Positions 47,307 to 49,100 of a DNA stretch of 64,000 nucleotides are shown one piece after another; positions within the stretch are counted from its first letter, which is position 1, and each line of letters starts with the position of its first letter. The stretch comes from Treponema primitia ZAS-2 (GTDB lineage Bacteria; Spirochaetota; Spirochaetia; Treponematales; Breznakiellaceae): contig NC_015578.1 of NCBI RefSeq assembly GCF_000214375.1, positions 3,286,001-3,350,000 on the forward strand, read 5' to 3'. The notes below the pieces were generated by a model. That model worked only from the letters and a program-made list of their open reading frames with translations. It ran no database searches and was not told the origin of the DNA. The translations under genes and the position numbers were made by a program.

Positions 47307-48653
47307 CTATCCCTCCAAATACTGCCGCACCGCCTGCCCCATGGCCGCATAGATCTGCCGCCGCTTTTCATCGTCGTGTTCCAGCAGGGTGAATCGGAAC
47401 CCCGGCAGGTCGCTGGCAAATCCCGAAAGGGGCACCACGCAGATCCCCGTGGAGGCCAGGAGCCAGTACACAAAACGTTTGTCCGGGGCAACATTGGCGG
47501 TCTCTTTGCGGATGTACTCCTCCAGGGAGGGGTCGGCAACCGGCAGGGACCGGGAAACCGGCGATTCCAGGATGCCGTTATCAAAGACCGCGGTGGCATA
47601 GAGGGCGCCCCGGGGCTTTTTGCAGCTTATTCCGGGAATACCCAGAAACGCCTGATAAGCTTCTTCGGCACGGCCTTCGAACATGGCGGCCCGGCGAGCC
47701 AGGTGATCCGGGTAGCGGCTGTCCCCGATAATGGAGGGGATGCAGAGCTGGGGCAGGCTGGTAGAGCAGACCTCCAGGCGCTTGGCGTCCAAGAGGCTTC
47801 TGATGTAGGTGTCAAAGCGATGATCCGAGTGGCGGTTGTAGACTTCCACCCAACCGCAGCGGGCGCCGGGCCAGGGCACTTCCTTGGACAGGGAGCGCAG
47901 GGCCAGGCCGGGGACGCCGTCGATGACCTGGGAAAGGGCGGCGGTTTTGGCGCCCCCGTAGACTATGTTGGCGTAGGTTTCGTCGCAGATGATGAACAGG
48001 CCGTAGGTCCGGGCGATGCGGACAAATTCGCGCAGTATTTCTACGGGGTACACCGCCCCGGTGGGATTGTCCGGGTTGATCAGGAGCAAGCCCGCCACAG
48101 AATCGTTGTACTTTACCTTGAGTTCCACATCCTCCATGTCGGGCATCCAGTCCCGGGCAGGGTCCAACCGGTAGGTGAGGTGCTCGTAGCCGGAATGGGC
48201 GGCCTCTGCAGAGGAAAGGGTAGAATATGCCGGGGAAGGCCCCAGCACCCGGGCTTCCCGGCGGAGGAAACCGAATACCTTGGCTACCGCATCCCCCAGG
48301 CCGTTGAAAAAAAGGATATCCTCAGGCTCTATCTTCACCGGGTCAGGAAAGCCCTCCCCTGCCCCGCTTGAAAGCTTAGGCCGGGTGTTTACCCGGGCGG
48401 CCAAAAATTCCCGGGCTTCCATGGCGCCTTCGGTTTCCGAATAGGCGTAGGACATATCCTCAGCGGCCTTTTCCCGGACTATGTCCTTGATCCAGGGCGC
48501 GATGGGCTCACCTTTCTTTACCGGGTCCCCGATGTTCTCCCATTGAATGGGGCGGCTGGTGTTCCACCGGCTTAAACTGCGGGCAAAGGCGACGATTTCC
48601 CGTATCTCGTATTTGAGCTTTCCCGCTCCGGGGTGAACGATGTCTCTTCTCAT
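47307..48653 (-). CDS. Class I/II PLP-dependent aminotransferase, probably alanine-forming
   Basis: 448-residue cytoplasmic fold-type I aminotransferase. PLP-site features are LLLINPDNPTGAVYP (Asn), FIICDETYANIVYGG (Asp, Tyr) and LRSLSKEVPWPGARCGW with the Schiff-base Lys; the substrate-carboxylate Arg is in LPGFRFTLLE. AAAGGAG with 7-nt spacing precedes the ATG. The amino acid specificity is not evident from motifs, but the leader upstream carries five Ala codons in an attenuator, which points to alanine (or alanine-linked) synthesis. That inference is from regulation, not from the active site. Confidence 0.88.
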   Translation of the reverse strand: MRRDIVHPGAGKLKYEIREIVAFARSLSRWNTSRPIQWENIGDPVKKGEPIAPWIKDIVREKAAEDMSYAYSETEGAMEAREFLAARVNTRPKLSSGAGEGFPDPVKIEPEDILFFNGLGDAVAKVFGFLRREARVLGPSPAYSTLSSAEAAHSGYEHLTYRLDPARDWMPDMEDVELKVKYNDSVAGLLLINPDNPTGAVYPVEILREFVRIARTYGLFIICDETYANIVYGGAKTAALSQVIDGVPGLALRSLSKEVPWPGARCGWVEVYNRHSDHRFDTYIRSLLDAKRLEVCSTSLPQLCIPSIIGDSRYPDHLARRAAMFEGRAEEAYQAFLGIPGISCKKPRGALYATAVFDNGILESPVSRSLPVADPSLEEYIRKETANVAPDKRFVYWLLASTGICVVPLSGFASDLPGFRFTLLEHDDEKRRQIYAAMGQAVRQYLEG

Positions 48654-48729: not shown

Positions 48730-48865
48730 AAAAAAAGCCGTCATCCTCTGCGGAGGATCACGGCCCGATGTTTAAAAGCAAGGGCTAACCGCGATCCTCC
48801 TGGATAGCGGCTGCTGCTGCGAGACTGTATACAACTGTTTGAAGCTGTAACTTTTTCATTAGCCC
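48730..48865 (-). promoter_or_regulatory. Transcription attenuator with alanine-codon leader peptide
   Basis: Minus-strand order: segment 1 CCGCTATCC (48802-48810, overlapping the last two Ala codons), segment 2 GGAGGATCGCGG (48789-48800), segment 3 CCGTGATCCTCC (48752-48763), segment 4 GAGGATGACGGC (48737-48748), then seven T (48730-48736). Segments 1:2 pair (one mismatch), 2:3 pair fully (one G-U), and 3:4 form a terminator (one mismatch). This is the classical ribosome-controlled attenuator layout. A further helix, GGGCTAA (48859-48865) with TTAGCCC (48782-48788), could close the leader. The aminotransferase starts 77 nt downstream. Confidence 0.8.
48785..48859 (-). CDS. Leader peptide with five consecutive Ala codons
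   Basis: 24 codons, beginning MKKLQLQTVVYSL, then GCA GCA GCA GCC GCT (48806-48820), then six residues and TAG (48785-48787). The Shine-Dalgarno is weak (GTAGGG). Size, codon run and overlap with the alternative hairpins mark it as a regulatory leader rather than a functional protein. If Ala-tRNA(Ala) is scarce, a ribosome stalled here would cover segment 1 and favour the antiterminator. Confidence 0.75.
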   Translation of the reverse strand: MKKLQLQTVVYSLAAAAAIQEDRG

Positions 48866-48889
48866 TACTCTGGCAAAAAAATCAGAATA

Positions 48890-48895
48890 TGTCAA
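48890..48895 (-). promoter_or_regulatory. Candidate -35 element for the attenuator transcript
   Basis: Perfect TTGACA on the minus strand; the hexamer 17 bp downstream is CAGAGT, a poor -10. It would start transcription at or just before the leader peptide, so the true start may be further upstream. Confidence 0.4.
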
Positions 48896-48941: not shown

Positions 48942-49100
48942 AAAAAAATCCCCGGTTTCCGTGGTGGAAACCGGGGAAGGAGCCCCAGGGACGATTCCCC
49001 ACTACCGCCAACGGCGGCATATCCTGTGGCTGGGGTGGTGAACCGGCCCTCAAATCCCTTTTAGTATCACCTGGCTTTTAGAAATCCACAACAAAACCTT
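48942..49100 (-). ncRNA. Candidate structured small RNA ending in an intrinsic terminator
   Basis: On the minus strand a strong hairpin CCCCGGTTTCC / GGAAACCGGGG (48950-48977) is followed by seven T. Upstream are more helices: GCCGCC-GTT-GGCGGT inside CCCCA...TGGGG, and GGTG...CACC. TATAAT (minus; 49107-49112) would be a -10 giving a start near 49100, about 155 nt. No coding frame and no riboswitch family recognised. It could also be a leader or a decayed element. Confidence 0.5.

Follow-up and report, generated by a model that had tools for sequence, protein, structure and literature searches.

A probable ribosome-controlled attenuator with alanine codons in the leader of an aminotransferase gene in Treponema primitia and its spirochaete relatives

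In Treponema primitia ZAS-2, the gene for a PLP-dependent class I/II aminotransferase is preceded by an element that is highly likely to be a transcription attenuator that ribosomes control through alanine codons. The cell very probably makes more of the aminotransferase when it is short of alanine, a statement made without expression data. The element lies on the minus strand of the window, which is the whole 64,000-nucleotide stretch of DNA that was analysed (bases 3,286,001-3,350,000 of the 4,059,867-base single-contig genome). A broader interpretation is considered probable, namely that this is an ancient, class-wide spirochaete alanine attenuator in which leaderless initiation at a 5'-terminal AUG times the ribosome against RNA polymerase, that it is the first ribosome-mediated attenuator for alanine, and that it assigns the NF005334 enzymes to alanine supply. 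The features of the locus are as follows.

48890..48895, minus strand: -35 box TTGACA of the leader promoter, 36 nt 5' of the leader ATG, read from the sequence
48867..48872, minus strand: inferred -10 box CAGAGT, a poor match, 7 nt 5' of the leader ATG and at 17-nt spacing from TTGACA
48785..48859, minus strand: leader ORF of 24 codons, MKKLQLQTVVYSLAAAAAIQEDRG followed by a stop, with the ATG at 48859 and the TAG at 48787-48785
48806..48820, minus strand: regulatory codons GCA GCA GCA GCC GCT, five consecutive Ala codons inside the leader ORF
48802..48810, minus strand: strand 1, CCGCTATCC, partner of strand 2 in the anti-antiterminator, seen in folds
48789..48800, minus strand: strand 2, GGAGGATCGCGG, partner of strand 1 or strand 3, its 3' end adjoining the leader stop codon
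48752..48763, minus strand: strand 3, CCGTGATCCTCC, forming the antiterminator with strand 2 or the terminator with strand 4
48737..48748, minus strand: strand 4, GAGGATGACGGC, partner of strand 3 in a 3:4 hairpin of -20.4 kcal/mol
48730..48736, minus strand: T7 tract of the intrinsic terminator, read from the sequence
47307..48653, minus strand: the regulated gene, a PLP-dependent class I/II aminotransferase of the NF005334/PRK06855 family, identified with NCBIfam and Pfam

The leader ORF, the Ala codons, the hairpins and the T7 tract of the original prediction were all located on the minus strand with their coordinates, and its claim of a fully paired 2:3 antiterminator holds, with 12 of 12 positions paired between strand 2 and strand 3 (one as G-U). 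The 1:2 and 3:4 helices each contain one internal mismatch, because of which the 3:4 hairpin was overlooked by a simple terminator scan. The distance from the T-run to the aminotransferase ATG (48653) is 76 nt. Folding, which had been suggested as a check, recovered the competing 1:2, 2:3 and 3:4 hairpins. The 201-nt region folds at -74.8 kcal/mol, compared to -55.4 ± 4.1 kcal/mol in dinucleotide shuffles (z of -4.7), and none of 200 shuffles was as good. A mutually exclusive pair of 2:3 antiterminator and 3:4 terminator, together with the U-run and the 1:2 helix, meets the criterion for an attenuator.

The codon placement also suits attenuation when the folds are recalculated with parts of the RNA masked by a ribosome, for which a downstream footprint of about 12-13 nt was assumed. 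A footprint of this size is general knowledge. According to the masked-fold energies, a ribosome stalled on the Ala run masks strand 1 and not strand 2, and a ribosome at the stop codon masks strand 2. When the RNA is free from 48806, corresponding to a stall at Ala codons 1-2, the 2:3 helix is available at -26.7 kcal/mol before strand 4 exists and would outcompete 3:4 at -20.4 kcal/mol. When the RNA is free from 48774, corresponding to a ribosome at the stop codon, 3:4 forms and is the sole option in the masked fold. In the absence of a ribosome, 1:2 is predicted to fold first, followed by 3:4.

A mechanism can be proposed in which transcription would begin at the leader AUG or immediately beside it, and the ribosome is inferred to load on this 5'-terminal AUG without a Shine-Dalgarno sequence. 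If charged Ala-tRNA is plentiful, the ribosome would get through the Ala run to the stop codon and cover strand 2, leaving strand 3 to pair with strand 4 and transcription to terminate at the U-run. If no ribosome is present, 1:2 would pair and 3:4 would again cause termination. If Ala-tRNA is poorly charged, the ribosome would stall on the Ala codons and mask strand 1, so that strand 2 would take strand 3, no terminator would form and the aminotransferase would be made. The enzyme would then supply alanine, probably via transamination of pyruvate.

The paired strands are maintained in relatives. The consensus fold of the relatives consists of 1:2 plus 3:4, and in nine relatives 86% of the cells of the 1:2 helix are paired, with standard pairs in 95.4% of 2:3 cells and 95.2% of 3:4 cells. 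For the 2:3 and 3:4 cells, this pairing drops to 30-58% once the partners are slid relative to one another. Two pairs of the 3:4 helix are changed on both sides in a compensatory manner, and an apical extension of 2:3 appears compensatory by eye only (CGTTC/GAACG in L009 and L010, CTGATA/TATCAG in L011 and L110), as it was left unaligned by RNAalifold. Strict base-pair covariation is weak within the Treponema-type group because the strands are nearly invariant. Since it is too low there to serve as proof, the argument rests on conservation across the class. At this scale, the 2:3 duplex has a mean z of -2.7 against a shuffled strand-2 region (39 loci, including differently built ones) and lies within the best 5% of base shuffles at most loci.

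To follow the leader through the class, orthologues of the NF005334 aminotransferase were gathered from relatives, the class and the phylum, and their upstream DNA was read. In 40 of the 52 class orthologues with readable upstream DNA, a short leader ORF contains 4-8 consecutive Ala codons; these cases are spread over 12 families (f1, f2, f8, f9, f12, f19, f21, f22, f65, f68, f72 and f75). No leader was found in 10 of the 52, and all 34 orthologues found within the phylum but outside the class lack an Ala-run leader. A terminator lies 3' of nearly all Ala-run leaders, with T-runs of similar length after strand 4 in nearly all relatives. In the remaining two class orthologues (2/52; L055 and L077), the Ala codons are interspersed with others, giving SAKAS and SASAKA, and the leaders are followed by a CCACAG...CTGTGG terminator; both appear to carry this attenuator in a degenerate form.

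The stronger case against a chance origin is comparative, and the prevalence of alanine was also assessed by script. Among 83 upstream regions searched for an ORF of 12-45 codons with at least three identical residues in a row and then a terminator, 34 matched for Ala, with no other amino acid exceeding 4, compared to about 0.1 Ala matches per dinucleotide-shuffled set. In a scan of 574 kb of sequence, the short ORFs that combine a homopolymeric run with a terminator and with a -35 box spaced for a leaderless start were, without exception, Ala leaders of the aminotransferase. A quick, non-bootstrapped tree of 74 aminotransferases requires about 7 changes in the state of the leader, compared to about 25 on average after shuffling, as would suit an old trait that was lost several times.

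Strand 1 contains part of the Ala run, and it must be asked whether the hairpins and terminator simply regulate or trim the transcript, with the Ala codons a by-product of the resemblance of strand 1 to strand 3 (GCCGCAG-type) and no sensing of alanine. Strand 1 shares its pairing partner, strand 2, with strand 3 and would therefore be expected to be GC-rich and GCN-like. However, strand 1 measures about 9 nt, yet the Ala runs measure 12-24 nt. Moreover, when the ATG was picked solely by its distance from TTGAC and a GCN run was sought in any frame, the run was in frame with this promoter-anchored ATG in 39 of 40 leaders, despite the 10-16 variable codons, most often 13, that precede it. Third positions vary while Ala is kept, and lineages with other strand sequences retain Ala. 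In the Treponema-type group, Ala codons 1-3 differ at third positions only (GCA/GCC, GCA/GCG and GCG/GCA) and codons 4-5, which lie in strand 1, are invariant as GCC GCT. Such a pattern would be anticipated if the upstream part of the run is important for its codons and the downstream part for RNA pairing too. The by-product explanation is thus considered improbable, and the leader ORF appears, from comparison of the leaders, to be read as protein.

A translated leader could act through its peptide instead, which would stall the ribosome as an arrest peptide or as a sensor of an antibiotic or of EF-P-like stress, and not through the charging of Ala-tRNA. Leader peptides that sense small molecules do exist (for example PMC10314930, PMC12121999). 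In addition, the leaders from the same genus, from the family and from one genome of another family in the order have a variable N-terminal half and a near-fixed end, LAAAAAIxEDRG directly before the stop, and this near-fixed C-terminal motif of the Treponema-type group speaks for such a peptide. The first eight leaders of this type and the divergent leader of L013 have exactly 24 codons, a length found in 14 leaders. Across the class, however, the flanks vary freely (NAAAAAAF, LAAAAAAP followed by a stop, TAAAAAAR and IAAAAAIL) and the Ala run alone remains. Distant leaders keep the run and are otherwise wholly different, as in MNIRNEIHNIAAAAAILTAVR (L054), MIVRSSDVQILLAAAAAAP (L063) and MNKRSDLYTNSILSAAAAAAFQHGIAG (L083), each ending at a stop, and further divergent Ala-run leaders are MKHTNLSSQHLHLAAAAAAAATMVGPL (L061) and MLLYELNPAATMMLIAAAAAAGMERSAAGGRGLVRG (L093), again each with its stop. 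The gene downstream, moreover, encodes an amino-acid aminotransferase. Arrest by the peptide itself is therefore regarded as very improbable.

Attenuation governed by Ala-tRNA charging remains the preferred interpretation. The original prediction would have been refuted had the Ala codons or the paired segments not been conserved in relatives; instead, the search upstream of orthologues that it proposed found the Ala-run leader in 40 of 52 class orthologues, the Ala run is in frame across 12 families and 2:3 pairing exceeds that of shuffles at most loci. The hairpin logic persists along with the run even where leader sequences are very different. Its assignment of the element as an attenuator is supported by this class-wide conservation and by a link to the aminotransferase gene.

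This link was examined with a covariance model built from nine leaders and run on 200 genomes of the family. Fourteen of the 200 genomes were matched at an E value of 3.4e-16 or better, with one strong match each. Seven of these 14 are model members or were already known, and the other seven are new and, like the first seven, all lie directly 5' of the aminotransferase. A pattern scan independent of the model covered 84,980 species genomes, and all 11 of its matches are directly 5' of the same aminotransferase gene. Two genomes of the same genus (G003 and G004) lack both a close homologue of the aminotransferase and the leader, and none of the AlaA genes in the family (L014-L031) has an Ala leader. 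Weak matches to the covariance model (L117-L121) were rejected as ordinary GC-rich or terminator sequence without an Ala leader.

The promoter of the leader is positioned close to its start codon. No Shine-Dalgarno sequence is present 5' of the leader ATG, a point on which the original prediction was silent. Among the 40 leaders, 39 have TTGAC or TAGAC at a distance of 34-41 nt on the 5' side of their ATG, and in 31 this distance is 35-36 nt. With the -35 box at this leaderless spacing, the transcript should start at or beside the leader AUG. The leader mRNA is thus probably leaderless, with the transcript start inferred from promoter position. The -10 box of the window, CAGAGT, was not called by a consensus scan; relatives have better -10 boxes at the equivalent place, such as CATACT, TACGAT and TATATT. 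In five orthologues (L075, L079, L080, L082 and L090), the leader is absent and a TTGACC promoter lies 35-38 nt 5' of the aminotransferase's own ATG. These loci look like natural losses that would place the gene under a leaderless promoter. An apparent Ala run at L079 belongs to an upstream coding frame and was left out of the count.

The aminotransferase scores 595.8 bits against NCBIfam NF005334 (cut-off 443) and matches Pfam PF00155 (class I/II aminotransferase). Its nearest solved structure is 4cvq (E of 9e-33), which we take to be E. coli AlaA, a glutamate-pyruvate aminotransferase; other near solved structures are the putative transaminase 1xi9, tyrosine aminotransferases and alanine aminotransferase 2. 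AlaA as the nearest solved relative fits an alanine substrate, inferred from sequence similarity, and is no proof of it. The enzyme is proposed to be an alanine supplier because attenuator codons usually match the product.

Attenuation may, however, be real and the enzyme not mainly alanine-making, if alanine stands in for the state of pyruvate or nitrogen and the substrate is another amino acid. NF005334 has no assigned substrate, and the models for tyrosine/nicotianamine (139 bits) and alanine aminotransferases (137 bits) score equally, both far under their cut-offs. In addition, an AlaA homologue is also present in 29 of the 41 class genomes that have the NF005334 enzyme. The enzyme as a simple replacement for AlaA is thereby ruled out, although an AlaA orthologue is missing from the window genome, in which the best identity is 29%. 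The need of so many relatives for a second alanine aminotransferase is unexplained and counts against a role in alanine supply. On the other hand, AlaA is the closest solved structure, the lack of an AlaA orthologue in the window genome agrees with such a role, and in known attenuators the codons correspond to the amino acid made by the operon (PMC1183508). A different main substrate is accordingly judged unlikely, if still a real possibility, and alanine supply is retained as the inferred function.

The theory of classical attenuation and a list of the operons concerned are available (PMC1183508). Like the trp, his, leu, thr, ilv and pheA attenuators of enterobacteria, the spirochaete element has a leader ORF with clustered codons, three mutually exclusive helices, a U-run terminator and a biosynthesis-type gene. 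In contrast to these systems, the element occurs in spirochaetes, alanine would be sensed and a single gene regulated, the leader is probably leaderless, and in the Treponema-type leaders the stop codon abuts strand 2. In Corynebacterium glutamicum, the leader peptide of ilvBNC is translated from a leaderless mRNA with no ribosome-binding site (PMC11857589). The two systems share a leader peptide without a ribosome-binding site on a transcript that starts at the leader, as well as hairpin-based attenuation, and differ in that ilvBNC uses branched-chain amino acid codons and belongs to actinobacteria, with unrelated sequence and gene. Charging of tRNA-Ala is sensed in Firmicutes by the alaS T-box riboswitch (PMC4695836), in which the charging state likewise chooses between terminator and antiterminator, but through direct binding of the tRNA and without a leader peptide. 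Rfam, including its T-box models, gave no match at gathering score for the window and 10 relatives, with chance matches only at E values up to 10. The earlier statement that no well-described alanine attenuator is known, and none in a spirochaete, is in agreement with the open-access literature, in which no alanine attenuator and no spirochaete leader-peptide attenuator was found (subscription papers and supplementary prediction lists were outside the scope). Relative to the attenuators described there, the amino acid (alanine) and the phylum are new, and the leader is probably leaderless.

If the interpretation is correct, alanine would be added to the few amino acids that ribosome-mediated attenuation is known to sense, and this form of control would be widespread and old in spirochaetes. 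It would also provide a testable function for an aminotransferase family named merely PLP-dependent, and the roughly 40 sequence-diverse leaders, together with the relatives that have lost theirs, form a natural set for studying the coupling of leaderless initiation and transcription. Counting against the interpretation are the lack of expression, RNA-end and enzyme data, the weak covariation in the Treponema-type group, the poor -10 box of the window, the ten class orthologues without a leader and the departure of some leaders from the general plan, among them L055, L077, the f21 lineage and L066, which has no detectable T-run.

Several further arrangements were observed. The leaders of family f21 (L054, L069, L071 and L072) combine an Ala run with a CCGCAGTC...GACTCGCGG hairpin, and their T-run follows a second conserved hairpin (CCGGCGGGTC...GCCGG TTTTTT), which constitutes a different terminator arrangement. 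In L116 / L122 (G773), the leader has 23 codons and the 3:4 hairpin is enlarged with a nested stem (CTCAGTGAGCATTGCTCAAGGG). Finally, a second structured stretch lies 5' of the attenuator at 48942-49065 on the minus strand, with a perfect 12-bp hairpin and a T7 at its end (z of -3.6). This stretch is single-copy and absent from 39 relatives save for short partial matches, and may be a small RNA or mark where a transcript that is not annotated ends.
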